From Polytrichum commune (taxonomy: Eukaryota > Streptophyta > Polytrichopsida > Polytrichales > Polytrichaceae), in the NCBI GenBank assembly GCA_950295325.1, contig OX485803.1, positions 67,535,554 to 67,599,553 on the forward strand: DNA of 64,000 nucleotides. The letters are read 5' to 3'. The notes below the pieces were generated by a model, which was not told where the DNA came from, ran no database searches, and saw nothing but the letters and a program-made list of their open reading frames with translations. The number at the start of each line of letters is the position of its first letter. The first letter of the stretch is position 1. Position numbers and translations under genes: made by a program. Shown in pieces: positions 661 through 45,645 of this stretch.

Positions 661-690
661 CACTATGCCAAATACAGGCTTTTTTGACTG
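661..690 (+). repeat. CACTA left terminal inverted repeat
   Basis: The first 18 bases match the right end exactly. The similarity continues imperfectly through the following T-rich stretch, to roughly 28-30 bases. Confidence 0.93.
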
Positions 691-699
691 GGGTTTTCG

Positions 700-1400
700 A
701 CTAAAAATGGTATAAAACCAGGTACTTGACTAGGACTACTGTAGTGGCAAAGTGAGTCAAATGCTTGTCAGGTCGGACCAGTCGCTTGCAACAAGTTGAC
801 TATGGTTTATTATGTGGGCATTTCGTTCCCTATGCACGTTCCCAATGACCTTTTGGGACCTCGATTGGCACCGCCCTTGGGACCTCCTGTGTCTCGACTA
901 CATATAGTCAAGTATTGTTGACTACCAGTAGTAAACATGTAGTGCCCACTCTAGTAAAGATAGTTATAATATCTTGACTATACCTAGTAAAAGCTTAGTC
1001 ATGTCAATAATTATGTCGCTTCACTAAGTCTAGTCATAATGATTTGTGTATAATCCAAATAAAACATAGTCATCTTTGCTACAACGTTCCACTATATTTA
1101 GTCACATTGGTGTGACTAAGATTAGTCAAGGGATTGTTCATGGTGGACACTCCTGGGTTTACCTTGACTAAAACTAGTCACACAATTGGCATTCAGCTGG
1201 CCTTAAAGATTGTCTTCTTCACTACTTGCAATCGTTTTAGTAATTGTTGTCAATTGGAAACTACTACGCATAGTCAACTCTCCTCATTCACTTTAGTCTT
1301 GCATTCTAGATTCATGACTGACTCTAGTCAGCCCATGTAAATTGTTCTGGTCTTCATTTTTAGCATTGCTATCACAAGTAGTCAAATTAATACGACTAGT
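700..1400. promoter_or_regulatory. Left subterminal TGACTA/TAGTCA motif array
   Basis: I count about 16 exact TGACTA or TAGTCA hexamers in both orientations between 721 and 1,385. In En/Spm elements the subterminal 200-700 bases carry many copies of a short motif bound by the TnpA protein, and this array fits that role. Binding itself is inferred. Confidence 0.75.
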
Positions 1401-1603
1401 GATAGAATTAGATGCATATCCATGTATGTGCAATCTGTACTACATGTATAACAAGCTCAGCTGCGACATGCGCAAACATTCTATAGAAACATTCACTTCT
1501 GGCAATCCATACACTGGTTCAAAAAGCATTTTATATTCAAAATAATCGTTCCTGGGTGTAGTCCTCCCATAAGCACATGCGGGTTCCTAGAACTAGTTCA
1601 AAA

Positions 1604-4600
1604 CTAAACTGGTGGAGGCCGGCGCAAACATTCTGTGGGCCACAAAATAAACTGACCAACGGCATCACCGATTTTCGAGACCGGTGGATCATCTAGCATT
1701 AAGGGTTTATATAGCACATATCCGTCATCGTAGCTCTGCAGCACTGCCAAGGACACAGTTCCTTCAGCAATTACTACTCCGTGCAAAGTCCCCCCCGGAA
1801 GAGTCGTGACCCTCCCTTCCCCTACTAGAAGAGATTCCTCATCAACTCCTATTCCCATGATCTGTACTACGTCTCCTGCTACAAAGGGTAGCATTGCTTC
1901 AACCTCCTTCAATGTTTCTTTCTCCTACAAAGAAATTGACATGCTTCGGAGTTAGTATGAGCTACAACCATGGATACATGACTTGTCATTTGATTAATAA
2001 TAGGGGTGACATTCAGAAAGTCAAGCATTGTCAACTACCAGTAGTAAACATGTAGTGCCCACTCTGCTAAATATATTTACGACATGTTGACTAGACCTAG
2101 TCAAGCATTAGTCTAGAGCTAGTCACGGGTTAGTCAATCATTAGTCACTGGTTAGTAAAGTATTAGTCTGGTTAGTCAACCATTAGTCACTGGTTAGTCA
2201 AGCATTAGTCAATGGCTAGTCAAGCATTGGTCAAACATTAGTCACGAGTTAGTAAAGCATTGGACAAGGATTGGACAAGGATTAGACAAGCATTAGACAA
2301 GCATGTATCAAGCATAAGTCAAGCATAAGTCATTGTCCTACCTTTGAGATTTTTGATGCACCTTTCTTGGGGAGCCGCTTCTTGCCAATCTTCTCCGATT
2401 CCTTTTCCACTACATGCTTGGCTCGTAATTTCCAGGGCATTTGCGGTGACTGCATTCCAACCTGTAGCTTCTGCAACTCCGTGGCCCGCGCCCTCTTCTT
2501 CGGAGTGAATGCAACATCGCTAGCCACCTTCTCCCTCGAGCCGGAGCTTACCTCCTGATCGTTCTGAGTCTCCAACTCTGCAACCTCCTGCTGAGTGGGA
2601 CCTTCGTCTTCTGCCTTCCGTTTCTTTCCCTGTTCAAAGTATCCACCCCAGTAGCATTTAGTCTAGCAAATTCATATCACTCCAAAGCTAGCCAACTTTG
2701 CGCTAAGAATGAACTTCACATTTCATACTCGAGTGCTCAACAACATTAGCTACTACTACTCACGACATGATCTCTACTTTACTATGTTGTCGTCACAAAC
2801 TCTATGTTTAAAATGTCTTTGTAGTCACCTCTTGCTCATGTGTAGTGTGTGCGTGTACCACATGAGCTTCGTCAATGTGAGGAGTATCTTCTCTTGAATG
2901 TCCCTTGGATTTTGGTGAGGCCAAATTCTGGTTTCGGAACTACACAACATGGGCAACAATACGACCTTAATGTTTAGGATTTAGCAGTCATAGCACGTGA
3001 ACTCTACCAATGCATTGAAACCAGTTTGAGGGCTGGAATTAAAAACGTACCGAATTGGGCAAGCACTCGGTGCTACACGTGTTCGGAGTTGACTGCAGAT
3101 GCTCGAAAGACGAAGGCTTCTGCACATTGGATGTAGTAGGGTCTGGAACAGCTGGTATATTTAGTGCTGTCATGATTGCCTTCATACTGGCCTCCATCCC
3201 AACCATTCGGGTATAGAAGTCGCGTTTCATCGACTTGAATTCCATTGCCAGGGACGACGATGGCTCCCGCACTCCGCTTCCACTACCCGACATGTGGGAC
3301 ACATTTGGCGTGCCTGCCGGCTGCTTCTTGCGAGATTTTTGGCGTAGCATCTCCAACTCTATCTCCTCGCGGCTTGGATCCCGTTGCAACTCTGCTGCCT
3401 GCACCAAGACCCTCTTGCATTGCATTCCATTAATCAGACATAAATATAGTTACAGAGTTTCATATATACGCATAAACAAGTTCTGAAGTGCTGAGGAACT
3501 TCAGAACTAGTTGACTACCACTACACCAATGGTTGACTAGAACATTACTACTAGTTCTGTGAATGTTGACTAAATTCTTACTAGGTATGACTAAAATATG
3601 ACTAAAGCATGACAAGAGTAGAAACTTGGGAGAGTTACTTACCAGATTTGCCGTTACCTCCCCCTCGGACCTGCCTGCATGGGAAAGTCGCTTCAGTTGA
3701 GCGCGATTTAGAGTGAGTGTCTCCGCTTGCTTTACCTTCTTCTCGTCTGCGATTAGTGCTGAGAGGTTGACCCAATGGTCTTGCCTGATGTGCTTTGGTT
3801 TCTCTCTGCTAGCGACCATTAATTTTTTCATGGCATACCTCTTCATCTTCAACTGTGATTTCATATTTGCATGGAAGGACCACTCTGTGACGTGCCCAAT
3901 GCCGCCTTCATACTCAAAGGTATTATCCACCCTCTTCTTGACGTTCAACAACGTCATTGCATTGTGGTCGTTGTAGTTGTCCACACTGAAGTCCAAGTCA
4001 ACTGCATGGCCTCGTAGGCATTTCAGCCATAAGTGACGGTTTCCCCCGCATGGATTTCCCTTCGTATCCACTTCCACTGTGTATCGTTTTCTTCCATGTT
4101 GCTCTCGAACCGGTGCTTCCTGTTGCAATCGTCGTGTATGTAGTCGCCTCCGGTGGCGTTTGTCAGCTTCCGAGCTGCGTGGAAGATCATCGAACTCTCC
4201 CCCCGCAACTACCTCTGGACTGAGCTTAGCCGCAAGATGTTGCTTTTGAGCCCTCTGTACCTTCAACATCTCCAACTCCTTGCTCATAATCTTTAGGTCC
4301 ATGCTTGCATAGTCGTCCAGCCCAAGCTCAGAGGTCCTACCAGAAGAACGTGAACCATCGAACCTCCTTGCTGGCGGTGGTGCAAAATCCTCCAGTAGGC
4401 TTTCCTCCTCCAGAAAGTCATGCTCGTCCCCATCGTTAGATGACCACGTCACACTAGTCGACATGTTACGTGCTTCCTTTCGTATTGCGGAGTCTTGTTG
4501 ACTAATTGCGCGTGGCACCGCAAATTTAGCACCTGAAGGTTGTGAAGGCGGAGAACGTGCTGAAGCGGGTGTGTTGTTCACACTATAGGGCCTTCTGGTT

Positions 4601-7600
4601 TCCCACTTCGTCGGCTCGGACAATTCAGATTTCCCCTGCACATGTGGATTCATTGACTTATTCCAGGTTCTATGCACATAACTCAAGCCTTGCCATAAAA
4701 ATATAGGGAGATGACCCTGGACTCCTAGTTCTCAAATTGCTAAGCTTACTAACAGTTGAGATAATGCATAAGCTGAACCAACACCTGACATTGTTTGCAA
4801 CATTAGAACTGGAGTACATACACGCACCTTTGCAGGAGCTTTAGGAGCTGGAGAAGTTCGCAACACTGCTTCCGAGTTCCTTCTGGTCCTCCTCCCCTCT
4901 TCGTCTAATGCCTGTAGTTCCTATGCAATAGTTAGTACTTCCATACTTTACTAGTACCAATTTAAAATGTTCAATGATCATACTAGTGTTTGTCACCTTC
5001 TGCACACATTGTGACAAAAAATAGTCAAGTTATGCAGTTGAATGACTAACATCAGAAGTCTAGAAGCTAAGAAATCTAGAGAGGTATGTTGTTGCTCTCC
5101 GGGAAATCTAGAGAGGGATGTTGTTGTTTCTACATGCCAGAAAATGTGCAAGGTCACTGAATGGAAGTTGTACCAAAGCAAAAGTGTAATCTGCTCATGC
5201 CCTTCTCAGAAATGCCTACTCACATATCATGATGTCGACTTGAGCATATCAAATCAAAGTACCAATACAAATGATTGACTTCAGAGTCCCCATTTGCAAA
5301 CCTACACATAATAATCTAACTTGCTAATCATTTAACAGATTAACATGCCAACTATCTGGATTATAGGGAAAGACACCAACAAGTAACCTTTTACTTATGT
5401 TGATCGATTACAAAGTTGCTTCTTCACAGGTTGCCAAGCTAGCCAAAACAGGCAAATCAAACATCCTCAAGTTCCATCACAGAAGTCCAAGCTGAACTTG
5501 AAGCTTCTTCACCTCGGGCATTGAGAAATTTCAACACACTTGAACCCCGACTAACTTATTATTGATCTCCTTAAACTCGAGTTAGACATAGCCCTCATTA
5601 ACATACCTCCATCAACACAGCCATCCTTCGAAGTTGGAGCTAACTTGAAGTCCCATGACCTTCAAAACTAACAAAGTCCGAGCTTCACGAAGCTTCACGA
5701 CCCTGCTGCTGCTGGACCTCAATCAAGTTTTCCACAAAACAACAAATGCACAGAAACAGTTCATGCACAAGTTTTCGGAGTGACTGGCAGGGGAAACAGG
5801 TGAGAGACAGGGGTATTGGTGTGGATGGTGGTTGATCTCCTTAAACTCGAGTTAGACATAGCCCTCATTAACATACCTCCATCAACACAGCCATCCTTCG
5901 AAGTTGGAGCTAACTTGAAGTCCCATGACCTTCAAAACTAACAAAGTCCGAGCTTCACGAAGCTTCACGACCCTGCTGCTGCAGGACCTCAATCAAGTTT
6001 TCCACAAAACAACAAATGCACAGAAACAGTTCATGCACAAGTTTTCGGAGTGACTGGCAGGGGAAACAGGTGAGAGACAGGGGTATTGGTGTGGATGGTG
6101 GTTGTAACTTGTGTAAGTGGTGGTGCAATGTTTTTTTGCATACACCAACGCTCACTGCCTGGATGAGGCGATGATGAAAGTAAATGTATCCATCACATGA
6201 AAACTACAGTTACTCATCAGGTTAGTTTCCATGTGGAATCTGCATTTCCACTAGAATCTGGTGGCCACTATATTTGAGTGGCATGTGGTTTGGTGTTTAC
6301 CCAAGAACAGATACCAAAAAAATAAGTGTTTAAAAGAGATTGGACTGTGTACTTAAAATATGATAACCATTCTGTTTTCATTATCAAAGTGAAGAGTCTC
6401 ATGCTCAGAGGATAATATGTAGGTGTTGGGGAACTATATGCAAACTATAGATGCAAAGCACCCATGATTTCTACACTCTGGTGATATTATACTCTGGTCC
6501 ATTCCATCCAACATTTCTCAAATTAAAGGATCAAAACTATAAGCTACCACGCAAAAGAGTGAATCAAACATATTAGGTTACCAGAGCTCTCTGACAACTT
6601 TCTTGCTCCTGGCCCTCACATGCACAACCTATTACGACATTCACAAACATTTTATTAGCCAAGGCTGTTATAGGATCAATCTCCTGGTTGAAAGCAGAAT
6701 TGGAATAAAAGAAAGAGCAAAAGTAAATGAGCATTATATCCCCATTGCATCCAAAACCCATTGCACATCAAAGCCAGAGAGTAGACAAAGCAACACCACA
6801 ATGCAACATCTGCCAGCAAACCAGAATGGCAAAGAAAGGCACTGCAGAAAGATAACCATTTAGTTCGTGAAATAACTGAATGCGTGCTGAGAAGGAATGG
6901 TGAGAACTTGTAGCATCTTCTTGAGTACTCACAGTGTCAATCAGAATACTCAGAATGTTCCAAAAAGTGCTCAAAAGGCAGAGCACGTGAAAGGGGGGAA
7001 AAACTACAATGCTTGCACCCGTTAATTAACAGCTAACTTTACAGAAACCCATACATATGGAGAACCCCACGCAAGTCAAAGCTTGGGGGAACCTTCATTA
7101 TGCTGGACACAGTTGATTCCACTGTCACCTGATTCCATACGGTTCACTATGTGGTTTCAAAATTTTCATCCACGTAATCATTGACCTTCCTTGACATGCT
7201 GCCTGCGAAGCCCTATCTGCACATTTTGGACCTCAAGTGAACTTCACTCTCCAGGTGCTGTTTCACGATCGATTAGTCTCTGCGGATGGGGTGCGGAGTA
7301 GGGAGGAGCAGCAGCAGGAGGTGGAGGCAATGTGGCAGGCCTTATGGATCTCATAGCCGACGACCTCAATTTCACCATGGATCGCAACTGTTGTACACAG
7401 TGGATTCAGAAGAAACTAAATCTCTCAACCCTAGACCCTAAAGCCTGGAAATGTTGAGGCTGGAGACTTTAGGGTTGCAAGAGAAAACAGCCTTTGAGTA
7501 AAGATGAAGATGAATACTTACCTGGATACGAGCTTGATCCAACAGGGACGTCGGAGATGGTGCTCTCCGTGACCTCGTGATCCTCGAAAACTCCCCCACC

Positions 7601-7932
7601 TGGTGTGATACCTGCGGACGACCAGCTCCTTGTTTTTTGGGATGCCTGCCTTTCTCCGCCTTCAGTACTCCGACTTCATTTGCAAGCGCATGTAACCCTA
7701 ACGCCTCAAGCTTCTTGTTGTTGCTCTCTATCCTCTTCAAGCGAGCAGCCTCGTATGCCGTTAGGGGAACCTGTGTTTCTTGCAAGGCCTTGCTTGGTGA
7801 TTCGCCGGCCTCACTGTCGCTGCTACTTTCGGCGCCCTCACTCTTGCTCCATGGTCCGCTCTCACTACCGCTTATTGTGTCGCCCTCACTAGTCTCATAG
7901 CTAGCATTCTCAAACCCATCTTCCGTGTCCAT
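1604..7932 (-). CDS. TnpA-like CACTA accessory transposase (multi-exon)
   Basis: By family analogy the product binds the subterminal motifs and assists transposition. Reading on the minus strand, exons with canonical GT/AG sites are 7932-7522 (ATG start, acidic Ser/Glu-rich, then a TAYEAARLKRIE helix), 4920-4828, 4635-3643, 3398-3051, 2629-2342 and 1924-1604 (stop). Every exon is a multiple of three and all introns are phase 0, giving about 817 residues. The 4635-3643 exon carries the conserved block with GHAVDLDF and DHWVNLSALI, typical of plant Ptta/En/Spm proteins. The 3398-3051 exon (SREEIELEMLRQ) looks coiled-coil. The last exon ends with IGDAVGQFILWPTECL, matching the C-terminal TNP1/EN/SPM domain. 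The 2.6-kb first intron may hide another exon: 7379-7235 is open after an AG, but its donor phase does not fit. The promoter would lie just above 7,932, so the gene diverges from tnp2. Confidence 0.85.
2085..2330. repeat. Dense TAGTCA cluster in the last TnpA intron
   Basis: Tandem units of the type (A/G)TTAGTCA(A/C) repeat every 10-14 bases; 11 exact TGACTA/TAGTCA hexamers fall in 2,090-2,250. The cluster lies in the intron between exons 2629-2342 and 1924-1604 and decays into GGACAAG/TAGACAAGCAT units toward 2,330. It is the densest copy of the subterminal motif in the element. Confidence 0.8.
5562..6104. repeat. Two-copy tandem repeat, 270-bp unit
   Basis: Positions 5,562-5,831 are repeated head to tail at 5,832-6,104. 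The only difference I noticed is CTGCTGCTGCTGG against CTGCTGCTGCAGG near 5,714/5,984. The array sits in the first TnpA-like intron and has no recognisable product. Near-identity means the duplication is younger than most of the surrounding sequence. Confidence 0.93.
6105..7520. other. Rest of the long first TnpA-like intron
   Basis: No transposase similarity is visible. A minus-strand stretch at 7379-7235 follows an AG, is open for about 47 codons and is proline/alanine-rich (RPATLPPPPAAAPPYSA). It could be a further exon or a captured piece, but its donor phase does not fit the next exon. Confidence 0.4.
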
Positions 7933-8139
7933 GACTCAACAACCCGAAGCTCCAGAGGAAGGGATGGGTGGTGTCAGTTGGTATGTAAATTATCCACGCC
8001 ATTGTTGCAGGCTTGGTTTTTCTACTCCAACCAATTATCAGGTTGTTGAACGCTACACCTACACTGGATGCGCAAGCACTACAGTAGTTCACTTAGGTGG
8101 CAGTCGGGGATCGTTTGGAATGTCGAGGCAGTACCGAAC

Positions 8140-8240
8140 GGTGGATGGCGGGGAAGGAAGGGAGGGAGGTTAGGGTGCGGTGAATGGCGGGGAGGGAGGG
8201 AGGGAGGCTAGGGTGCTCTCGATGGCGGGTAGGGTTAAGG
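8140..8240 (+). repeat. G-rich duplicated segment with a G-quadruplex motif
   Basis: An ATGGCGGGGAGGGAGGGAGG-type unit occurs twice (about 8,146-8,175 and 8,184-8,215) and a third, shortened ATGGCGGGTAGGG follows. Positions 8,189-8,204 read GGGG-A-GGG-A-GGG-A-GGG, a textbook four-run G-quadruplex pattern. It lies about 210-310 bases upstream of the TnpA-like start codon, in the probable promoter. Confidence 0.75.
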
Positions 8241-8567
8241 CCAGTTTAGGGTCATTGACCGTTAGTCTTCACTTTATTTTAAATTTGAATCAAACATATT
8301 TTCAGACTGCACTCATTTCTTATCTTCTTTAGTGTGCCCTTTATAAATAAATTTTTTTTTCATTAGATTCATGTAGATTCCGAGCCGAGCCGTTGAATAT
8401 AAATGTGTCCACCAAGTTATGCCTGATTAATAGACTTTCGGTGGGTTTCTGGAGACTTCGCCCGTCATTGCTATGTGGGATAGAAAATCGAAATTGAGAT
8501 AAATCATCTAATGGAAGATTCTTGTGGGTTTTGGATGGCAGGTCTTGTTATTATGTGGGGTTCATCG

Positions 8568-9190
8568 ATGATTCCTAACAATGTACCACTGATGACTCCC
8601 AGCAAGAGCTGGCCTTACTTTGACCCTGAGTACGACACTATGAGCTCTCTCATAGATCCCCCTGAGTAAGTATATCTGTGGTTTCTCTTTCAGTTGGAGC
8701 ACCTCTTCAAATGAAATACAACTTGATTTTTAGAATGGAATGGTCAATGTCATGTTCAAGTTAGTTCAATTGCTTGCTCTCACCTGTGCAGGGTCGTGAT
8801 TGACAATGATTAAGACAAAGACGCCACACTTGTAAAGGTATATTTCTCATCAATCCTTATTGTTTTCTAAGGATTATATATGCCCTATTGTTCAATTTTC
8901 AGACTGCACTCTGCCTGTCAGTGCTTTTCTCCTGACTGAGAATTTCAACAAAACTTAACTCATATCAGGAGGCTCTCAGTAATGAGCCAATTTATGAAAT
9001 AGTTGTGCTGACTCTTGCCAGGTGGATAGAGTGATACCTGGTAATTGTAGAGGTCGTTACAGCTCAAAAGACAAAGCGATTTCTCCTTTGTGCTGCGAGC
9101 TCAAAGACAATAAAGGGATGTCTGTCGATAGGTTGGGTGGACACATTCTGCAAAGTGCTCGGGAAGAGTTTGGGACGAATTCTTCATGAA
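8568..9190 (+). pseudogene. Captured fragment of an ACT-domain-repeat (ACR) gene
   Basis: An exon-like segment 8568-8665 starts with ATG and reads through SWPYFDPEYDTMSSLIDPPE to a GTAAGT donor. A second, 8792-8837, joins in phase and reads VVIDND-stop-DKDATLVK. Plant ACR proteins begin with exactly this pattern: an EYE/EYD segment, then PPRVVIDN...ATLVKVDS. A third segment after an AG at 9,021 begins with VDRV and ends with a DNKGMSV...HILQSAR...FGTNSS stretch resembling the end of the first ACT domain, apparently with the middle deleted. ACR proteins are plant ACT-repeat proteins, probably amino-acid sensors. The in-frame TAA at 8810-8812 and the deletion make this a non-functional piece carried by the transposon. 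Confidence 0.7.
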
Positions 9191-9750
9191 GAACCAAGGG
9201 CCAGCATAGGTTTTGCATCAGTGGTGATTTCCTGAATTCGTTATGGGAAGAGATAATGCTCTCCATCTGAAGTTTCTAGGATGAATCACATATTCAACCC
9301 ACTCAGAAAATGTCATGATGGTCGTACAAGTTGTTTACAAAATTCTAAATGATGTGCGTAATTTCTTCCTGATTGAATCTGGCTTGCCAGTTGGCTGGGT
9401 CAACCTTAATGATCATAATCGTTAATTTGCCAGGTGGATAGAGTGATTTGCCATAGCTGTAGATGAAATATTGCCATTCAAACCTCCTGCTCTACTTTCA
9501 CTCGGATTTTATCGTCATGTTTCTCATGGGCGTTATGGTCAGCTTTAAGAGTCATCAATAATCACAATGTAGGCGGCTTTTAGTGCGAAAAATATGAAAC
9601 GGATGTGCAGACTCGTGGGTTGATTGTCGGATATTTCTTTCTGTAGATTCTCAATTGACAACATTATCACGCATCAGCTGACCTGAGATATGGCTTACTG
9701 ACTCTCCTGTGAAAGACTGTTTGTTAACATTTTGATTTTTGTGTGGCCAG

Positions 9751-10641
9751 GCTACAAAGGTCTACTGTTTTGTGCACAAGGCGCCAGTATGTGCAGATTG
9801 TATATGCTTTCCAGAGCACCACCTTTGTGTGGTATTGCCCACTACCATTCTGATTAGATTTTAGCTTCACACTTATTTTTTGATCTTTTAAAAGAGATAA
9901 CATACCAGTCAAGTTTGTTCCAATGAGAATCACAACCATATGTTTTCCAATGTCCTGGTGGTGACATGTGAGCTAATTATCAGTACTCAGAAGTTCAAGC
10001 AACTAAGTCGTCAGAGTGTCTAGCACATTGTTACCTGACGAAAAAGTTTATTTGTATTACTCGGTGAATGTTGGAGATTTCCCTATAACCGTGTATTTTG
10101 ATGAAGAGTCAATGTCCAAGATCAAAATTTTGTCAACTGGTTCCTTGTGTAGGTCAGAACATATTCAGACTGGGTGATAGACAGCGACTATGACTGGCCA
10201 CCAAAATGCTGCGCATGCCAGGCTGTTCTGGTAGAGGAGGATGCAAATGTAACTCGCCTTGGGTGTCTACGTAAGTTTCAAAGGGTTTATCTTCCAGTCG
10301 ACTTTATCCAATGCCTACAACAAAATATCTTCCATGGCTTTGAGAATATCAACTAAATAAGTGGAACAATTTAACTACTATATCCATTTGATTATTTTGT
10401 ATGACTTGAAACCATTCAACTGTACAATACTATTATAAACATGTAAGCCATCTGATCTGATCTAATTCCAGTGCCATGTGCTATGTTTATATGTATCTAT
10501 GCCTGTGATGAAACTGAGGCTAACAACATTGCTTCCTGGACTTTAGACAATCTGCACACAACCTGCTTGGAGTCTCATTTGGAAAAGTTTCCTCCACATA
10601 CAGCGCCTGCTGGCTATGTTTGCCCAATCTGCCCTACTGCT
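9751..10641 (+). CDS. Captured ZFPL1-type zinc-finger exons inside the CACTA element
   Basis: Three exons with canonical splice sites and matching phases remain open: 9751-9831 (27 codons, ATKVYCFVHKAPVCADCICF...), 10153-10270 and 10547-10641. Joined they give 98 residues without a stop. They match the N-terminal half of ZFPL1, a conserved cis-Golgi protein: VRTYSDWVID, YDWPPKCCACQAVL, VTRLGCLH, then FPPHTAPAGYVCPIC. Both Cys/His zinc-binding clusters are covered. The first coding exon (MVVCKCRK in the family) and everything after the second finger, including the membrane anchor, are absent. No start codon precedes exon 1 in frame, so any product would need a chimeric transcript. This is a transduplicated host fragment; whether it is expressed or selected is unknown. 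Confidence 0.85.
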
Positions 10642-12373
10642 GTAAGTCCTGTTGCAAATCCTTCCCAAATCTCCTTCAATTCAGAAGGAACTCAAAAGTG
10701 ACCATAGAAAGTGCATCATTTTAAGGAAGCGACCATCCATTCAGTCTGTTCAAGAGTGCAGCTTTTTGACAGAAAAAAGCTTTTGGTATAATTTGTTATA
10801 AATTGATCAATGGTTATAATAATAATACTTTGACAAATGTTTTACTGCTATTAAAGGTATTCCAAATGCTGGAATGATTGTTTTATGGATGCCTATCTGG
10901 AAGTCTTGAACATTGATCTCTTTAGACGTTGGAATCAAGATTCTTAGTTTTGCTCATTGTATTGTTGCAATCAGACTCCTCACATTTGCATTACAAGATG
11001 CTAACAATGTGCGTCTTTACAAGCAATAAGGGTTTGCTGTTGTGTCAAAGAAGAAAGGTCTGACGATTCCTAATGGGGAAGACAAAGATTTTGAATTCTC
11101 ATATTCTAGCCATAAAGAGGAGTTAACGAGGATCAATTGTGGGTAAGTTGTTCTGTCACCCAGATGAGGAGTTTGACATGGATGTTGGAGGTGGTCCACT
11201 AGCATCTGCAAGTCATGGATATCATGGATATCATGTCTTCATGAGATGAATTGATGTCAAGAAGACACCTTATTGGTGATATTAGCAGGTCATCTCACTC
11301 CTGTCTTGCACAATATATAGTTCTATAGAGAGAAGTGCGGAGTTAGGAGGTTGGTTGCAAGGCTTTGGTATTCCTAAGAGGGGTACATATAATCATTTTT
11401 CTGCCTTGAAAAACCATTTTACATGATATGACAACAATCTGATTACTTTGCTGCAATTAGGTTGAAGAATGAAAATTTCTTCCAGAACCATTGCAAAAGA
11501 GCTCACTGCATTGGATGTGTTCATGCAGTGGCTGCGGAGGCAAAGCATCCAATGTTTTAGTTTCTCAAATAGTTCACATGGTGCAAGTGAATTCGTTGAT
11601 ATTTTGAGAAGGAGGGCTCTTGTATCTTCCTCTGGCAGAGGTGATGTTCGAGTGAGAATACTTGTCTGCTTCATTCAAGGGTTTGGTGAGGTGCAGTTTT
11701 TTGGAATACCAGAATGTACTTGTGTCTTGTTGATTTAAAACCTTAGTTATCTCACATGTTTTCTCGATCTTTATAAACAGAAAGTTAGCATTCTACCTTA
11801 AGCCATTGTTACAGATTTGGCAGTACATGTTCTGATGTGTCTGGTAGGACATACTTGTTGCTGTAAGAATGTTTAGATATTCACTGGATATGTGTAGGCT
11901 ACATCACTTACATCAGGCCCTAGAATGAAAGAGGTGAACATTCGTATATATGAAGAGGAAGCAGCAAAAATTTTCAAATGCGTTTCTGTTGGATCAGCAA
12001 TTACTTGTGTCAAATGCTCTGGTAGAGAATACAATACTGATGTCATGGTTACCTCCTTATCAATGTGGTTGGTACTTTTGTGTGCTAAGGTAAGTGAGCC
12101 ACAAAGTGACACTTTCAGGAAGTTATGCTATTCTGACAGGTTAAATAGCGGGTTAGTCAATTCAAAAAAATTCCTATTTATTTATTTATTTATTCAAACA
12201 TGTGGCTTGGACACGTTGTGCCTTGGCCTTCTCAATTAGCCATTGTGATTGGCCAAATTTGGTTGTACATCTTGAAATGTTCTTGCATCCTTCTTACATT
12301 CTTGATAACACAATGTTGGGGCTAATGAATGCTGGTAGGAAAACTGGCCTCCCACTGAATTGGAGTGTGACAG
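10642..12373 (+). other. Internal CACTA region with unassigned exon-like pieces
   Basis: At 11898-12089 there are 64 open codons (KEVNIRIYEEEAAKIFKC...) between TGTGTAG and AAG-GTAAGTG, which look like an acceptor and a donor. A second open stretch lies near 11,038-11,138 (GEDKDFEFSYSSHKEEL...) and ends at a GGGTAAGTT donor-like site. A third is at 11,469-11,738. I do not recognise a family for any of them. Given the ACR and ZFPL1 pieces next door, further captured exons are the simplest reading. Confidence 0.4.
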
Positions 12374-15300
12374 ATGGACAAGAATTCAAGAGATGAACTA
12401 TTGCACCTACAACTCTGGGACCTAGAGGAGAAGGAGGCAAATGGACTGCACCTCTCATCATATCCTTGTCCCTGTAAAAAGTGCATGGGTGGGACGGTTC
12501 TATCAAGAGAAACCATTCGCAAGCATTTGAGGCATTACAAACGCGACCCACAGTTCCAAACATCAATACTGGTATTTGTTGGTATTTCTGAAACTTGACT
12601 GAAATAATGTGCGTTGTTGACTACCCATGATGTGCTATGTTGACTAGCCATAGTCACATATGTTAATGTCGTGACTACGAGTAGTCATAGATGTAGATAT
12701 GTGGGAGTACAAGCAGCTAGAGCCACTGAAACCATATTGCCTTGACCATGGCGGGATAGCATAACTTCCACTGAATATGTGCTACTTCTCATTTACCCCG
12801 ACCAACTGAATTATAACAGTCTACGAATACATGTCCTCCAACTTGTGTGGTCGTTTGCTACAGAGTAGGTGTTAATAGGTCTAGCTTCTGGTAGAAGTCG
12901 GCACTAACCTCACTGATTCTGTGGGACTATATATCTTGGCACGTGCATATGCAGTCTGGTCTTAGTGCCCAATCAAGTACAGTACTAAATACTGATGAGG
13001 TTCCTCCAAACGCTGTGGATGCCGAACCCGAGGAAGGCAGCGACGTATATCAGGATGCGAATGAGGAAGGCGATTTTGAAGTGCAGCAGATGATAACAGA
13101 GTGCTTTGGCCGGTTTGAGAACGACATTGGTGATAGCCAGGAGGATGAAGTACTTGAAGCTGAACGGGAGTTTATGGCCGATGAAGGAATGGATCTACTG
13201 GAAGAATCTTCCATACCACTGTACGAGGGAAGCAAAACAAGCTGAGTAGTTGCAGTCATTCTCCTTCTCAATTGCTTTGCCGTTTTTGGAGTATCCAATG
13301 CATGCGCTACAGAATTGCTGAAGTTGATTTCGGAGCTACTACCTGTCAAAAACACTCTTCCGAAGTCTTACTATGAAGCTCGCAAGTATCTAAGACAACT
13401 CGGATTATCATTTGTCTCTATACATGCCTGTGTAAATGGGTGTTGTTTATTCCGAAAGGAGCTAGAAGGCGCAATGAATTGTCCAAAGTGTGGACAATTG
13501 AGGTACAAATCGGAGTCAAGCAGGACACCAATGAAAGTTTTGCGGCATTTTCCACTTATACCACGGCTGCGAAGGATGTATCGGTGTACATCTCTTGCAA
13601 AATTAAATAAGTGGCATACCGAACGGAAGGACCGTTGTGGCAATGTGGAGTGCGTTCCGGACTCGAAGGCATGGAAACACATTGACTCCGTATATCCAGG
13701 GTTTGCGTTGGAAGAAAGGAACATACGACTCGGACTTGCCCTAGACGGTGTGAATCCGTTCTCCAACCAATCCCTAAGCCACTCCACTTGGCCAGTTGTG
13801 CTACTGAACTACAATCTGCCACCATGGTTGGTGACAAAGCGGTTTTTCTTAATGTTGGCCCTTCTCATTCCTGGGAAAGAGAGCGTGACATCTGAAAATG
13901 TGGACGTGTACCTTGCTCCTTTGATTGAGGAATTGAAGCAACTTTGGGAAGGCATTGATGCAGTAGACGCATCTGCGGAGAGGGTGAATAGGAATTTCAC
14001 GTTGAAGGCCATCCTCATGTGGTGCATTCATGACTTCCCGGCATATGGATTAGTGTCAGGGCAAGTGACAAAGGGGTACAAAGGGTGCACCGAATGCGGT
14101 CCTAGTGTAACAACCCGACGTTCAGCTGCATTAACGAAGAATGTATATTTAGGACATCGTCGCTTCTTGAACCGAACCCATCCATATCGAAGATTGCAGA
14201 GAGCTTTTGATGGATCACAGGAGACCCGTCCACCACCAAGACAGCTAAGTGGCCGTGACGTAGTCCGGTATGCGATGAGGAGGGAAAACTGGTTGGCTGA
14301 CTCCCCACGAAACAGACCAGGAGGTGTTAACGATCCAGTACATGACACAGGCGTGAAGAGATTGTCTGCATTTTTTGCACTGCCATACTGGCAGGTGAGT
14401 GTATAGATTCAATTTCTGTGTGAAACCCTCACGACTTAACATAACATTAGTAATAGTCAAAGGAAAACTGAGAGCTTTGCAGCTTGGTTTGGAGGACTAC
14501 TGGCAGTCAAATTACAGTCACATCCATGCAAAGTTGAATACAGTCAAATATGATTGACTACACATAGTGCTCGCTAATATAATAGTGTATACGATATGAT
14601 GAGGAAGAGTACATATATATTTCCACTAATGGGAGCCATTGTTTGTATGCAGTCTCTTGCGATAAGGCATGTGCTTGATGCAATGCATTGTGAAAAGAAC
14701 TTATGTGAGAACATCATGAAGACAATTTGGGGTTTAAAGGATAACCTCAAAGTACGGATGGATCTAGCGGAAGCAAACATAAGGCCGGAATTGCACGCAA
14801 TTTCTGGTGGTGCTGAGGGAACGTTGTTGATACCAAGAGCTCCGTATATTCTATCAAGAGCAGAGAAGGTTGTGTTTACAAATATCATCCGTGGATTGAA
14901 GACTCCTAGCAATTACGTGGGCCAACTGTCTCAAAGAATCACAGGAGATGGAGAGTTAAGAGGAATGAAGAGTCACGACTACCACATTCTAATGCAACAA
15001 ATCTTGCCATTGTGCTTACGAACGATCTTACCAAAGGATGTCCGAATTGCCATTATTCGGATATGCCGCGTCTTTGCCCGTTTGTGCGTGAAGTCGGTGG
15101 ACCCTTCAAGCATGACTGATTTGTTCAATGAGACAGCCGTGACTATGTGTATGTTGGAAAGGGTCTTCCCACCAGCATTCTTCGATGTCATGTCCCACTT
15201 GCCTATTCATTTGGTACAACAGTTAGACATTTGCGGACCAGTGCACACCCGGTGGATGTACCCGATGGAACGGTACCTGAAAACTCTGAAAGGATATGTG

Positions 15301-16670
15301 CGTCTTCGAAGCAATCCTGAAGGCTCTATGGCACAAGGCTACATCATGGATGAAGCAGTGGGGTTTTGTACTGAATATATGCAACATTGTTGTGAAAGTG
15401 AGCGTCGTGTGTGGGACGACAAAGAAGAACCTGCAATGAATAGCGAGGTCATGGAAGGAAATGGGCGGCACAGGTTGTTGCCAGACGAATTACGGTTTTG
15501 GATCCATGAGTTTGTGCTGAACAATGCGGAGCCATTGCAAGTTTACAGAGAGTAAATCCACGCACTTTGTGTTGTTGCTCCTGTGACTACATTGTTAACT
15601 AGTAACGATAGTCATAAGCATTCATAATCTGACTAAATGCAGTACCAGATATGCTTCATATGACTAAATGCAGTACAAGAATATGCTTCATTTGACTAAA
15701 TGGAGTCATCATAGCTATTTGGATGACTATTTTCAGTCATTGCATCATTAAGCTTTAATCACAATGTCGTGGGATTTGAAGTAATTAACGACTACAAAAT
15801 GTGAGTGTCTGGTGCAGACGGCACGCTACAGAAATGACCCGAAGGAAGAGGTCAAGGGAAGACATGCGACGTCAACAGCGGGGTAGGAGATTGGAGTACC
15901 CAAGCAACATGGAAGAGGAGGCCTTTACAACATGGTTTCCTGTTGTAGTGCAAGATGAGATCAACCAAGGGACTGATGTATCCATGGACGTTCAAGCATT
16001 GCTAATGCCGCCCTCAAGGAACGCCAAGTCCTACAAGTCAATGTATGCATATGGCAACCACATAAGGGTTCGTAGCATAGAATCAAACATGAATACATGT
16101 GATAGTGGTGTGGCTACGACCTTTTTGCAAGCATGTCGTGCGAGCAGCAGTTCTAGAAATGTACGGACAACAAATTTAGAATACATAGGATGGGTGGAAG
16201 AAATAATAGGGGTAGACTATGGAGAGTTTGAGTTGATAGTTTTGTATTGCACATGGGTGAGAGCCAACCTCCGTGGCGTCGGAGCAACAATGAAACGTGA
16301 CGACTACGGCTTCACATTGATCAAATTCGATCGTGTCATACCGTATTCAACAGACTCATTTGCATTTCCCCTCCATGTGCAACAAGTCTTTTTTGTGGAC
16401 GATGTGGAGAATCCCGAATGGAAAGTTGTGCTGAGGAAAGAAGCTCGAGGTGCAAGAGTGGCGTCTACATCTGAGAGAAGACCCGAACCACTTAGTTTAC
16501 ATGTAGGCAGCGATGAAGACCACCGAGGATTGAGATCTGATATTTTAAACGAAGATGTGGAACCTGGCGCACCGGTGCTAGAAGGCTGCGCAGTACTAGA
16601 AGCTGAGGACGTTCATGCAGCACTACAAGAAAGAGAGGTAGAGCCAGATAACAATGAAGAGAGATTATAG
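12374..16670 (+). CDS. tnp2/TnpD-type CACTA transposase, with one premature stop
   Basis: This is the catalytic transposase of the element. Exons are 12374-12571, 12955-14394, 14653-15551 and 15818-16670, with GT/AG sites and phases 0, 0 and 2; the total is 1,130 codons. Exon 1 holds the transposase-associated Cys motif (YPCPCKKC...RKHLRHYKRDP). Exon 2 carries the tnp2 core: CPKCGQLRY, LALDGVNPF and HDFPAYGL with GCTECG. Exon 3 opens with IRHVLDAMHCEKN and continues into the DUF4218-type region (SHLPIHLVQQL...RWMYPMERYLKTLKGYV). Exon 4 has the DUF4216-type strand YGEFELIVLYCTWV. The Asp residues in LDG, HDF and LDAMH fit the expected DDE/D triad. A TGA at 13243-13245 interrupts exon 2 between EGSKTS and VVAVILLLNCF, where the family reads through. 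The frame is otherwise open, so this is a nonsense mutation or a readthrough site. Confidence 0.92.
12600..12690. promoter_or_regulatory. TGACTA/TAGTCA cluster in tnp2 intron 1
   Basis: Five exact hexamers (three TGACTA, two TAGTCA) lie within about 80 bases of intron 1. They use the same core as the subterminal repeats. Confidence 0.65.
15580..15765. promoter_or_regulatory. TGACTA/TAGTCA cluster in tnp2 intron 3
   Basis: Six exact hexamers occur, plus a CATATGACTAAATGCAGTAC-type unit repeated about three times at 35-base spacing. Intron 2 (14395-14652) has two further hexamers and four CAGTCA variants. Confidence 0.65.
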
Positions 16671-16679
16671 TCTGGCCTT

Positions 16680-16902
16680 TTGAGACGTCGCCTGATGTAG
16701 TCAAATTGGACTAAAACTAGTCAAATTGGTCACCATGGTCGTACCCAATGAGTAAAATTTTGTTCCCGAAGTTCGCCCCCTCGAGGTCCTCTTATTTTTT
16801 ACTACAACTTGACTGGGAATCTTCTTGGAATCTATTTTTACTAGTTGTAGTCATCATGTGACTAGTTAGTCGAGTTTGGTCAACTTGCTCTAGTAAAAAA
16901 AA
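16680..16902. promoter_or_regulatory. Right subterminal motif region
   Basis: At least four TGACTA/TAGTCA hexamers lie between the tnp2 stop codon and the right terminal inverted repeat, together with near matches (GGACTA, TAGTCG, TGACTG). It is shorter and sparser than the left array. Confidence 0.65.
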
Positions 16903-16920
16903 CCTGTATTTGGCATAGTG
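16890..16920 (-). repeat. CACTA right terminal inverted repeat
   Basis: CCTGTATTTGGCATAGTG at 16,903-16,920 is the reverse complement of the left end. The GGT target duplication follows immediately. Confidence 0.93.
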
Positions 16921-17183
16921 GGTCTAATTCCAACTAGATCTATCTATTCATTAAGAGTTGTCTAACTCCAATGAATAACATTCATCTTTCCAATTCTGGA
17001 GTGGTCTAACTCCAGTGCACCTCATCGAGAGTTGTCAACCTCATGTACACATGTTTTCAATATGGAATGGTCTAATTCCAATGCACTATATGCAGAGCTG
17101 TCTAAACCCAGTGCACATGTTGTCAATCTTGAGTTGTCTAACTCCAATTCATCCATCTTCAACTAAGAGTTGTCTAGCTCCCA
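16921..17183. repeat. Right half of the short-palindrome array
   Basis: Repeating GAGTTGTCTAACTCCAAT-like units about 45-60 bases apart continue the array at 540-660. The last unit is cut by the MITE at 17,184. Confidence 0.7.
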
Positions 17184-39660: not shown

Positions 39661-40771
39661 AGAGTCTCTATGGTGATGGGTTTTAAATGGTTTTTTCAAA
39701 CCCAACGTCTAGGCCGCTTCTCCTGAGATATAAAACAAGCGATGAGATGGTATGAGATGGTATGAGATGGTTAGCGAGGTATGAGATGGTTAGCGGATCG
39801 CAATCGAGGCTGTAGCCACTTTCTCCATAATGCTTCATAGAATTAGAGTTGCACGCACTTGATGTCCTGCAGCTGCCTCATCGTGCATACAAAGGTGCTA
39901 CTTGAATTCCAAAGACAATGATAACTTCTGAGCCCTACTACCAAATTACTCTATGTGTTGGGTTTTGTCAGTTTTGTGCACATGCGAATCTAGTGAGATA
40001 TTCCAAATAGCTGCAGTGTATATATACACATGAGCCACATATGCCTAATAAGTTCACCCTTGAGTATATCCACTTCGAAGCACAAGCCTGATGTCGAGTT
40101 ACCTTTGACTGGCCCTCATTGAGCGTTTGATCCGGAGGTGGACGTGTCCTCAAAATTTGGTACCGACAACGAAGAATGTATGTGAGAGTGGAGGTCGCAG
40201 GAGGACCGGTGATGCACATCCGGGCTGCATAAGGTATAGCTTCAGCTCTAACCTTGATCTGTTCTGATTTTTAATTTAAAAAAATTCAGTCATGGCAGGA
40301 ACCTTGATTCGTGATATATCGAGGGCTGTTGAAGGTTTTTTTAAAGATCTCATAGGTTCACCAAGCACCCACTTACCTTGGTCAGGATAGTCAATCACTT
40401 TGACTATTCTGTTACTTCCTCTGTGTTAGGCCAACACTAGACTCATGTGGTGAAGCTCTCTACGATAGAATAAGAGGATCAATTCACTCTCTGGTAGATC
40501 ATGTTGACAGTGATACAATGTACCAAAGAGTTCCAGCTTGATAGTGTATAATTTGGTGCGGTAAGCCCTTTTGCAGGACTTCAGATCTCGAATACTTGGT
40601 CCTCTGAATTTGCGTACTTCAAGCAATGAATGTTTATGGATGGTCCTGCATAGGTGTCCAGATCAACCTCATCACTAAATCAGACTCGATCAACTCCCCC
40701 AAGAACTACGCTCAAAGTCTGCACCTGGAGTCAATCATAATTCACCGCAGATGCCATAGGGGTGAGCAAGC
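39661..40771. other. Upstream region of the receptor-like gene
   Basis: No other gene is seen. A GGTATGAGAT microsatellite-like stretch (GAGATGGTATGAGATGG repeats) lies at 39,745-39,795. A transcription start was not identified. Confidence 0.4.
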
Positions 40772-43594
40772 ATGTCGAGATGCATGATCAGCAGGTTGAA
40801 GCCGGTGATGATGAGTTGCTCATGCCATCTACGAGTGTCAGGTTCGGTAGCAATCGCTGTAATTGTGGTGTTGCTTCTACCAGCCATGGCTTCTGGTACC
40901 GTCAGCTCAATTCAGCAGGAATCCACAACCGAGCTGGACCTCATCACCACCTCGGACGAGAAATCTATGCTGGAAATTCGGCAGGCCATTGGACTGGGAC
41001 CGTTGCAGAGGAACAGCACGTTGATGAATTGGCACAACACAAGCAACATTTGCCAGTGGATTGGAGTTACATGCAGCAATGCAAAGACAAGAACAAAAAC
41101 AAGAACACGAGGGGTGGTGGCGCTGAATCTGACGAGTGCTCAGTTGATCAATGGCGGGTTTCTGAGCCCGGCAATTGGGAATTTGAGCTTCCTCGAGAAT
41201 CTCACGTTGCAGGACACTGGTCTAGTTGGAAGCATCCCCGGGGAGCTTGGAAAATTGTCGAAGCTCAAGGTGCTAGACCTGGGGGGCAACAACTTCACTG
41301 GATCCATTCCCAAATCTCTGGCCGACTGCACAAATCTCACTCTTTTGAATGTTTCCTACAACCATCTCACCGGCAGCATCCCACCGGAGTTGGGTCGTCT
41401 CCGACAGCTTCAAGAATTGAACTTCGAGTACAACAACCTCACCGGATCCATCCCTGCCACCCTTGGAGACTCCTGTGAGAGTTTGCAGCGCCTCGTGGGA
41501 AGGGTTAACAAATTGAGCGGATCGATTCCTGCGTCGTTGGGCAATTGTTCTCATCTGCAGGATTTCGACTTTGAAGCTAACTCTTTGACCGGGAGCATCC
41601 CAGAGACGTTCGGGCGTCTACAGGAGCTCAGCAGAATCATGGCCAGATTTAACGAGCTCAATGGCAGCATTGGGATGCTCGGCAATTGTAGCAAGATGCA
41701 ATTCTTGTATCTGTCTTATAACGACCTCGAGGGGAGCCTGCCGCCTGCTCCGGGTCAGTCTTGGCCGCACCTCGAGAATTTTGAAGCTCAAGACAACCGA
41801 TTAACTGGGATCATTCCGGAGCAGCTTGCGGCGTCTGGATGCATCGGGCTGAAGAATCTTGTGTTTGGGAACAACAATCTGTCTGGTAGCATCACACCCT
41901 TGTTCGGCCGATGCCCACTTCTGGAAAGCCTGCAGTTCTGGAACAACAGCTTGACTGGACATATACCTTCCGAGCTCCGAGGGTTACAGAAATTTCGCCT
42001 TCTGTATCTGACAAACAACAATCTCGAGGGGCCAATCCCTGGGTCGCTGGCAACTTGCCCAGCGTTAGGGGAAATTCAGGTTGGGGGTAATTCACGCATT
42101 AATGGAAGCATACCACCTGAACTCGGCATGATGAAAACACTTGGAAATCTAATCATTACAAAGACGAGCGTGAGTGGTGTGATACCTGAGTCCCTGGGAA
42201 ACGCTTCGTCGCTCAAAACCCTCATGCTCAATGACAACAAACTTTCAGGCACCATCCCCGCTACTCTTTCCCAGTGCCAGAATCTCACCACATTGTTTCT
42301 GCACAACAACCAAATTAGCGGTGTCATTCCTGCAGAGATTGGGAACCTCCCCTTGCTCCAAAGGCTGTGGCTGTCCAACAATGACCTTGCTGGTCCGATT
42401 CCTGAGAGCATCGGCCGATGCTCTCAGCTGAAAGATCTGGAACTCGCAGGCAACAGAATAAATGGCACATTTCCAACATCATTCGGTGATTGCACGAAGC
42501 TGGAGCGAATCATGATGGCAAACAACCTGCTCAGTGGAGAACTGGAGAGTGTAAAATTTGAGCAACTTCGGTCTCTCACAGTGTTGTCCGTCGCAAACAA
42601 CTCCCTCATTGGGCCTATCCCAGAATCTCTGCGTCACTGTGTCAACCTAACAATTGCAGACTTCAGCAATAACCATCTGACCGGACATCTGCCTGAATTT
42701 ATGGAGAACTCGACGTTTCCAGATGTCTTTCCAAAGTTGCGTGTGCTGTCCATAGATAGCAACCAGATGACAGGTGTGATTCCAGAATGGATCTGGAGCC
42801 TCGGAGCGGTGAGCATCCTCGCTTTGTCAAATAACGGCTTCTCGGGGGAGATATCAAAGAACTTGAGCAAATTGTTGGGATTCATAGAATTCAATAATGA
42901 CAGCAGTACAGATCAAATGACAACACTGAGTGACCGTATTCAGCTCTTCACAACCGTCTTCGATGTGGAGCTTAACCTTACATTCGAGAATAACAAGTAC
43001 ATTTTTTCAGGGCAGTCACTCTCCACAACCACAGCTCTGAACCTGGAAAACAACAATCTTAGTGGCAGCATTCCTGGGGACATTGTGAACCTGCGGCAAC
43101 TAAGGCAGCTATATCTTGCAGGCAATGCCTTGAGTGGGGACATTCCAGATGCCCCTTCGGCCCTGCCAAATCTCGAGTCCTTGGATTTATCCGACAACCA
43201 GCTGGTGGGTAACGTTCCGTCCATGCTGGCGACGTCGTCAAACTTGGCAGTTCTGAAACTAAAGGGCAATAACCTGTCTGGAGAGATTCCCCAAGTCAAC
43301 AACTTCTATACTCGATTTGACGATAACTCCTACTTGCCAGGAAACGCAGGCCTATGTGGATGGTACACACATCGGTGCTCCGTCACTGTACCTTCTTCAA
43401 GCAATCCATCCGGCCTTGCATCGAAGGAGTCGTGGGTGAAAAACCATGTTTCAATCCCCGGCTTTGTGTTGGGCATGTTCACCGGTTTCTTGGGTGTCAT
43501 CGTCTTCATCCAGTCAATCGAGCAGATCAGGAATTTTGTACTTAAGCCTCGTGGACATCCTACCAGTCAGAAATCAGCACGTAGTAGATACTAA
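40772..43594 (+). CDS. LRR receptor-like protein without kinase (940 aa)
   Basis: An intron-less gene for a plasma-membrane receptor-like protein. Residues about 20-43 form a signal peptide (IAVIVVLLLPAMASG). An LRR N-terminal cap follows with WHNTSNICQWIGVTC. Then come some two dozen plant-type LRRs (LxxLxLxxNxLxGxIP). An island region at about 690-755 (IQLFTTVFDVELNLTFENNK) interrupts the repeats before four more LRRs, as in RLP and PSKR/BRI1-type ectodomains. After LPGNAGLCG...C, one transmembrane helix (about 896-914) contains a GxxxGxxxG pattern (G897, G901, G905) and the protein ends in a short basic tail. Many NxS/T sites fit a glycosylated ectodomain. No kinase follows for 780 bp, so signalling would need a partner; in flowering plants the GxxxG helix of RLPs binds SOBIR1-type kinases. 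The ATG is the first in frame and gives a proper signal peptide. The ligand cannot be inferred. Confidence 0.93.
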   Translation: MSRCMISRLKPVMMSCSCHLRVSGSVAIAVIVVLLLPAMASGTVSSIQQESTTELDLITTSDEKSMLEIRQAIGLGPLQRNSTLMNWHNTSNICQWIGVTCSNAKTRTKTRTRGVVALNLTSAQLINGGFLSPAIGNLSFLENLTLQDTGLVGSIPGELGKLSKLKVLDLGGNNFTGSIPKSLADCTNLTLLNVSYNHLTGSIPPELGRLRQLQELNFEYNNLTGSIPATLGDSCESLQRLVGRVNKLSGSIPASLGNCSHLQDFDFEANSLTGSIPETFGRLQELSRIMARFNELNGSIGMLGNCSKMQFLYLSYNDLEGSLPPAPGQSWPHLENFEAQDNRLTGIIPEQLAASGCIGLKNLVFGNNNLSGSITPLFGRCPLLESLQFWNNSLTGHIPSELRGLQKFRLLYLTNNNLEGPIPGSLATCPALGEIQVGGNSRINGSIPPELGMMKTLGNLIITKTSVSGVIPESLGNASSLKTLMLNDNKLSGTIPATLSQCQNLTTLFLHNNQISGVIPAEIGNLPLLQRLWLSNNDLAGPIPESIGRCSQLKDLELAGNRINGTFPTSFGDCTKLERIMMANNLLSGELESVKFEQLRSLTVLSVANNSLIGPIPESLRHCVNLTIADFSNNHLTGHLPEFMENSTFPDVFPKLRVLSIDSNQMTGVIPEWIWSLGAVSILALSNNGFSGEISKNLSKLLGFIEFNNDSSTDQMTTLSDRIQLFTTVFDVELNLTFENNKYIFSGQSLSTTTALNLENNNLSGSIPGDIVNLRQLRQLYLAGNALSGDIPDAPSALPNLESLDLSDNQLVGNVPSMLATSSNLAVLKLKGNNLSGEIPQVNNFYTRFDDNSYLPGNAGLCGWYTHRCSVTVPSSSNPSGLASKESWVKNHVSIPGFVLGMFTGFLGVIVFIQSIEQIRNFVLKPRGHPTSQKSARSRY

Positions 43595-44379: not shown

Positions 44380-45246
44380 TCAGTGATCCCCAAGCCGCAT
44401 GATGCCCCACACATCCATCACCCCGGGAGGAACAGCATTTTCAGTCGCTGCCCTAACGGCGGCCTTGGCAACAGTGGTGGCTTTCACCGGAGGCAGAAGC
44501 AGATTTCCTAAGACAGGAACCCGAGATACTGACTTGGTATGCTTCAAGAGCATCTCGAGTGGAGCCCCTATGATATTGAGTGGTATTTTCACACTGCCCA
44601 CTTGCCGAACACCATGAATGAAGCCAGGGCGTAATATAACACCACTATATGGAAACTTGCGCAAAAGTTCATCTTCTGCAGACCTCTTCCCTTCGTAGTA
44701 TCCTCGCATTACGAATGAGGGCAAACCGAAATTGTGAGCTGAAATGTATACAAACCTCTTCACCCCTGACTCTGCAGCCACATTGATGGCTTCAATGTTG
44801 GCTTTGCCATTGATTTTCCTCATTTGGTCATTGGATCCAAACCCACCCACACATGAAATCACAGCCGACACATCGTCCAATTCATTCTCCCATTTTGCAG
44901 GCTCAAATAAGTCTCCCCTGACCCATATGACATTGTCGGCCCATGGCTCATGAACTCCAGGTCTCCCTGACCTGCTGAGACTCATCACAGGAAACCCCTT
45001 CCCAAGAGCTTCCTTGCATACGTGGCTGCCCACATAGCCATTTCCACCGAGGACCAAAACCTTTGTTCGATCCGTAGATTGATTCTCCACAGGCTCAGCT
45101 TCCACTGTTTCCGCTGGATGAATGCCACCTGCTGTGGAAACAGAATAACATGCTTGCGATGCTCTGCCCAAGCCCCCTCCGAAGCTGGCTAACCCTTGAA
45201 TGTGATATAGATGCTGAAGAGCTTGTTTACTACCCCGAGCCGCCAT
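44380..45246 (-). CDS. Atypical SDR, NAD(P)-binding Rossmann protein, probably mitochondrial
   Basis: A single-exon, 288-residue protein. The first about 45 residues are rich in Ala, Ser, Arg and Gln with few acids, like a mitochondrial presequence. The dinucleotide-binding loop is VLVLGGNGYVGS (residues 64-74). ARG-type contacts follow (SLSRSGRP, 89-96), then GDLF at 111 and SAVISCVGGFG at 127-137. FVYISAHNFG (166-174) precedes Y183-x3-K187, which occupies the place of the SDR YxxxK pair, and ILRPGFIHG follows. The layout and length match the plant atypical (NmrA/NDUFA9-like) SDRs related to Arabidopsis At1g32220 and At5g10730. Members act as oxidoreductases or cofactor-binding scaffolds; the substrate is unknown. 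I start at ATG 45246; a GTG five codons upstream is also open but is not a plausible start. Confidence 0.9.
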   Translation of the reverse strand: MAARGSKQALQHLYHIQGLASFGGGLGRASQACYSVSTAGGIHPAETVEAEPVENQSTDRTKVLVLGGNGYVGSHVCKEALGKGFPVMSLSRSGRPGVHEPWADNVIWVRGDLFEPAKWENELDDVSAVISCVGGFGSNDQMRKINGKANIEAINVAAESGVKRFVYISAHNFGLPSFVMRGYYEGKRSAEDELLRKFPYSGVILRPGFIHGVRQVGSVKIPLNIIGAPLEMLLKHTKSVSRVPVLGNLLLPPVKATTVAKAAVRAATENAVPPGVMDVWGIMRLGDH

Positions 45247-45267
45247 TTGCAAAAGACCCACCGTAGC

Positions 45268-45645
45268 CCTGCCTACAAATACACTTCACCAAAGACCTAA
45301 ATTGTAAACGGCCTCAAAACAGAGCAGACAATGCTATGAGAAATTCAAGATTGACGTCTGTGTGAATCCCCTCCCGCCATAGCCAGCACAATCTTACCCA
45401 ACAAATTGCCGTTCCAAGCATTTCATGATAGACAAAAGGGTCAGGGTACCAAGCCTGCCTGCAAATATCCTTCAACAATGACCTAAATTCCAAAAGACAC
45501 CAAAACTGAGCAGACAATGCTATGATAAATCCAAGATTGGCGTCCGGATAATTCCCCTCACGCCAATGCTAGCACAATCTTACTTAACGAAATGCCGATC
45601 CAAGCATTTGAAGACAGAAAAAAGGGTTAGGGTAATGGTAAAACC
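45268..45645. repeat. Two-copy degenerate tandem repeat upstream of the SDR gene
   Basis: 45,268-about 45,452 and about 45,455-45,645 share GCCTGCAAATA(C/T), GACCTAAATT, CAAAACTGAGCAGACAATGCTATGA, AAGATTG(A/G)CGTC, AGCACAATCTTAC and CCAAGCATTT, with perhaps 80% identity. The pair lies immediately upstream of the SDR start codon, in its 5' UTR or promoter. Confidence 0.75.

Follow-up and report, generated by a model that had tools for sequence, protein, structure and literature searches.

How do exons of a host gene come to lie within a transposon with their splice sites and reading frame intact, and why have they stayed so? The question is raised by a stretch of 64,000 nucleotides from Polytrichum commune (GenBank assembly GCA_950295325.1, contig OX485803.1, positions 67,535,554 to 67,599,553; hereafter the window), in which a preliminary description, made from the sequence alone, had recognized a transposon with three exons of a ZFPL1-type zinc-finger gene and, beside them, an ACR (ACT-domain repeat) gene fragment that has gained a stop. 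Two explanations had been offered: either the capture is recent or selection retains the zinc-finger segment as a component of a chimeric transcript of the element. In our opinion the locus is very probably a young mosaic of host gene pieces, put together by template switching within a large CACTA transposon, in which the ZFPL1 piece is intact through its youth. Positions without a prefix refer to the window, those with the prefix C1, C2, C3, or C6 to contigs of the assembly.

The CACTA element and its sister copies

The exons are indeed carried by a transposon, since CACTA ends, a target-site duplication, and transposase frames are found around them (Table 1). The ends at 661 and 16920 (CACTATGCC..., 27 of 29 bp complementary) both start with CACTATGCCAAATACAGG, as do the inverted repeats of the CACTA superfamily, and are flanked by GGT (658–660 and 16921–16923), a target-site duplication of 3 bp being a trait of this superfamily. 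In the right part of the element Pfam models for Transposase_21 (E = 1.3e-74), DUF4218 (1.3e-36), and DUF4216 (9.9e-8) are matched by successive frames, a tnp2-type transposase being a trait of the CACTA superfamily, and Transpos_assoc is matched below the Pfam cut-off by the frame from 12371. In the left half, the minus-strand frame at 7438–7935 matches no Pfam family at the cut-off and that at 3460–4731 (423 codons) none at E up to 10. The element also contains a perfect 270-bp tandem duplication (5562–6101). Outside the element the window has a long open frame with leucine-rich repeats (40766–43594, 942 aa) and, on the minus strand, one with an NAD(P)-binding domain (44380–45285, E = 7.4e-17).

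Table 1. Positions in the window of the CACTA element, its frames, the captured pieces, and the joints between them
Feature	Position	Strand	Remarks
CACTA element	661–16920	+	16,260 bp; basis: terminal inverted repeats, GGT duplication, shared ends
Terminal inverted repeats	661–689 and 16892–16920		
Open frame, left half	7438–7935	−	points away from cargo
Junction 1	8286–8314	+	two chained fillers
ACR gene fragment	8313–9132	+	matches C3:19241445-19242466
Segment between ACR and ZFPL1 pieces	9134–9419	+	91% identical to C1:77413110-77413399 (−)
Junction 3	9427–9447	+	filler of 21 bp, identical to ACR sequence (9015–9035)
ZFPL1-type gene piece	9444–11039	+	part of intron 1, exons 2–4 with introns, part of intron 4
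ZFPL1 exon 2	9751–9831	+	81 bp
ZFPL1 exon 3	10153–10270	+	118 bp; holds the sole exonic change from the parent, at 10183
ZFPL1 exon 4	10547–10641	+	95 bp
Junction 4	11035–11056	+	22 bp, similar to the C1:77.41-Mb locus with one mismatch
Element sequence common to the C6 and C2 sister copies	11055–13245	+	
Transposase_21/tnp2 open frame	13246–14406	+	Pfam
DUF4218 open frame	14578–15555	+	Pfam
DUF4216 open frame	15789–16670	+	Pfam

The element belongs to a family. When the genome was searched with the first 1,340 bases of the element, at least 64 matches were obtained, at least 12 of which (that in the window and at least 11 others) begin at base 1 and reach at least base 1,285. Two sister copies were compared, one at C6:28.16-28.18 Mb and one at C2:11.67-11.69 Mb. 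Both agree with the element to about 96–99% in the left part, of which the fetched stretch matches up to 8289, and in the right part, which matches from 11055 and includes the right end. The ACR and ZFPL1 pieces were absent from both sisters in blastn comparisons of the fetched parts, which start after the first 4–6 kb, and genome searches with these pieces list neither sister. Copies at C1:68.58 Mb and C3:28.01 Mb likewise match the left part as far as 8289, and neither piece is present in the 10 kb seen; the stretches fetched near C1:20.23 Mb and C3:14.09 Mb showed no match to the window. We infer that the sisters without ACR and ZFPL1 sequence represent the older state.

The relatives have some peculiarities of their own. 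In both sister copies a single stretch matches the two window copies of the 270-bp duplication. The copy in C3:28002001-28012000 is a deletion derivative, its match up to 8289 being followed within about 30 bp by a match to 16056–16920. The C6 sister contains frames which by eye resemble a Copia-type polyprotein (C6:28171245-28172041) and 60 bp (C6:28172075-28172134) that repeat the sequence of window positions 7457–7516.

The captured exons and their parent gene

The three exons have exactly the coordinates first given for them and when joined provide 98 codons without a stop. Their predicted splice sites are canonical, as had been stated, the two introns starting with GTATTG and GTAAGT and both ending with TAG, and their phases (0, 0, and 1) are compatible, the exon boundaries being identical to those of the parent gene. 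This parent, for which a search had been proposed, was located at C2:30079185-30083403: an intact gene of nine exons (built by hand) and 378 codons, in which all introns are GT-AG. Positions 9444–11039 match C2:30079634-30081231 with 99.4% identity over 1598 columns, the match stopping abruptly at both sides, and the exon set is therefore not a product of chance. A DNA search of the whole genome with 9600–10760 listed three places, namely the window, the parent, and a 70-bp fragment of exon 2, and in a protein search of the 408-Mb assembly there were six matches, which correspond to the two exon sets of the window and C2:30.08 Mb. The 70-bp fragment (C2:29974321-29974390, minus strand, 89% identical) covers the end of ZFPL1 intron 1 and the start of exon 2; it is located about 105 kb from the parent gene and is perhaps an older capture.

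ZFPL1 proteins have N-terminal paired zinc-binding Cys/His clusters, one of them RING-like, and a C-terminal membrane segment. We take the parent and the captured exons to be of this type on the basis of sequence and architecture. A plant ZFPL1-like query matched the window exons at 50–72% and with E up to 10 found seven matches in all: the three window exons, three exons of the parent, and one other at E = 0.54. No Pfam model reached its cut-off (zf-RING_2, 20.4 bits versus the required 27.3; zf-RING_Vps41, 20.6 versus 30.3), and among solved chains the 98 residues gave 13 weak matches up to E = 1, the best being to a RING protein (E = 0.0018). The start exon of the parent reads MVVCRCRK, and near its C-terminus there is a hydrophobic segment (residues 343–361 of 378, mean hydropathy 2.12). 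Both are missing from the captured piece, which comprises three of the nine parent exons.

The remaining cargo and its joints

The cargo as a whole is a mosaic matching three other loci, on contigs C3, C1, and C2. The ACR fragment is 97.8% identical to its parent locus at C3:19.24 Mb, where a frame with ACT domains is found (E = 1.5e-16), and has a 201-bp internal deletion; the stop reported for it is real, its second exon having TAA where the parent has TCA. The C1:77.41-Mb locus, from which the segment between the ACR and ZFPL1 pieces is matched, shows no Pfam family at E up to 1 in three frames; its next part also resembles 11055–12298 and the sister elements.

At three of the four joints there are overlaps of 2–5 bp together with fillers of 15–22 bp. 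At junction 1 the first filler (8286–8300, 15 bp) is identical to element sequence at 6560–6574 and the second (8298–8314, 17 bp) to ACR sequence at 8895–8911, the fillers being linked by overlaps of 4, 3, and 2 bp. The filler of junction 3 has TGAT in common with the beginning of the ZFPL1 piece; for the seven bases before it (9420–9426) no source was found. The 22 bp at junction 4 share TGCTG with the end of the ZFPL1 piece and have a 2-bp overlap with the element sequence that comes next. Junction 2 (9132/9134) has no filler apart from a 10-bp match, which is possibly due to chance. In the element from about 2300 to 15600, the only 15-mers occurring twice are those of the three filler pairs, besides the 270-bp duplication and a TATT run. 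A self-repeated 15-mer is present at two of the four joints versus 184 of 9375 random 30-bp intervals, the length of 15 having been picked after the fillers had been seen. Because of these short overlaps and fillers, the joints point to template-switching repair as the probable route.

Age and coding potential of the ZFPL1 piece

The ZFPL1 piece differs from its parent, introns included, by seven substitutions and two one-base gaps in 1598 columns; five of the seven substitutions are C-to-T or G-to-A if the parent keeps the old state. One substitution falls in 294 exonic positions and six in 1302 non-exonic ones (Fisher p = 1). The exonic one (10183, G in the parent and A in the window) changes Gly to Ser and affects neither a Cys nor a His. 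With one nonsynonymous and no synonymous change in about 228 nonsynonymous and 66 synonymous sites, dN/dS is next to uninformative, there being only one change in the exons. The ACR piece is more diverged, with 16 substitutions in 823 positions versus seven in 1596 (p = 5.7e-4). It should be noted, however, that without the first 120 bp of the ACR piece the count is eight in 703 and the difference is not significant (p = 0.086). The 21-bp filler at junction 3 cannot by itself order the captures because it is identical in the C3 parent and in the element. The ZFPL1 piece is very young and probably the last arrival in the cargo. Of the two explanations offered at the outset, recent capture is supported by this small number of differences in 1.6 kb and suffices to explain the intact splice sites and open frame; of selection the comparison, which has very low power, gives no sign.

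Can the exons be translated? The 98-codon frame contains no Met, and an unspliced reading from upstream meets an in-frame TGA at 9733. Since ACR exon 2 ends and ZFPL1 exon 2 starts in phase 0, splicing one to the other would preserve the frame. A route through ACR exons 1 and 2 onto ZFPL1 exon 2 is, however, closed by the TAA, and one leading from ACR exon 1 directly onto ZFPL1 exon 2 is shifted into stops. With neither a start codon nor an open coding route through the ACR exons, the captured piece most likely yields no protein. Should the element be transcribed, the ZFPL1 exons could be present in the leader RNA as cassette exons or serve as a source of small RNA.

How the cargo may have been assembled

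What can be read directly from the DNA are the element, the parents of the ACR and ZFPL1 pieces, their divergences, the joints, and the lack of both pieces in two sisters; the following course of events would account for these observations. In the interval between the left-half frame on the minus strand and the transposase on the plus strand, the sequence found in the sister copies would have been replaced by a mosaic of host gene pieces, copied as genomic DNA with their introns. The repair would have switched from one template to the next at 2–5 bp common to both, short stretches copied from a template remaining as fillers. One may go further and propose that an element of this kind, equipped with transposase frames, renews the region between its two opposed sets of genes again and again in this manner, copying host exons in the direction of the transposase so that they become cassette exons of a leader RNA or a source of small RNA aimed at the parent; this extension we consider speculative and rather unlikely.

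A different route to internal host DNA has been described for Pack-type elements of Arabidopsis and rice (PMC13317346 and PMC8903248): two neighboring insertions flank host sequence and lose their facing ends, whereby the flanked DNA becomes internal. For the present cargo, which matches loci on C3, C1, and C2, several rounds of this process would be needed, and at the joints there are fillers identical to element and ACR sequence. In addition, no match to the element ends was found by blastn at the parents (25 kb around ZFPL1 and 8.5 kb around ACR). We therefore regard such an origin as improbable. The 99.4% identity of the two copies might suggest an assembly error that placed sequence of the ZFPL1 gene inside the element. 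But the captured copy has its own substitutions and gaps, there are fillers at both of its ends, and no long repeat is found there, which makes an artefact exceedingly improbable.

That selection retains the zinc-finger segment within a chimeric protein encoded by a transcript of the element would agree with the intact splice sites and frame and with six of the seven substitutions lying outside the exons; ACR exon 2 and ZFPL1 exon 2 would also join in frame, were it not for the stop. However, the rates in exons and non-exonic sequence are equal and the single exonic change alters the protein; the 98 codons have no Met, the TAA lies in ACR exon 2, and joining ACR exon 1 shifts the frame. Moreover, the three exons comprise neither the start exon of the parent nor its hydrophobic C-terminus. 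Selection of this kind is, in our view, very improbable. A young mosaic generated by template switching is thus the reading we prefer. As a new functional gene the ZFPL1 piece matters little, since its intactness is explained by its youth.

Comparison with known systems

Gene capture by CACTA elements is already known; the element described here adds an informative set of joints. It is a clean and young case of exon capture, with two parent genes, sisters without the ACR and ZFPL1 pieces, and joints that are all visible in one genome. The closest precedent among the systems compared is Tgm-Express1 of soybean, a CACTA element of 5.7 kb with five gene pieces that are spliced as cassette exons; it is inserted in intron 2 of an F3H gene, and its chimeric RNAs start from the promoter of this gene (PMC1947982). 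In both elements CACTA ends enclose pieces of several unrelated host genes, whose exons and introns are usable. The present element differs in being larger (16.3 kb) and in retaining transposase frames, and is described here at the level of DNA.

Pack-CACTA elements, too, have host coding sequence enclosed by CACTA ends and are flanked by a target-site duplication (PMC8903248 and PMC13317346). Pack-TYPE elements are, however, non-autonomous by definition (as given in PMC8903248), whereas the present element has predicted tnp2-type transposase frames. If its transposase works, it is therefore not a Pack-TYPE element in the sense of that definition.

The fillers bear on the mechanism of capture, for which the review PMC13317346 puts forward a tandem-insertion model in the case of Pack-CACTA. 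In this model the facing ends of tandem insertions are deleted, whereas the joints described here suggest template switching. For the gap-filling Pack-TIRs of animals, PMC8277862 reports gap filling with microhomology: there, too, internal element sequence is replaced by other DNA and microhomology is found at the breakpoints. It should be noted, however, that 56.9% of the animal Pack-TIRs are found at a distance of no more than 15 kb from their parental copy (PMC8277862); the loci matched by the present cargo are separated from it by about 10 Mb or belong to different contigs. At a maize locus, filler DNA templated by nearby sites has been described (PMC2686159).
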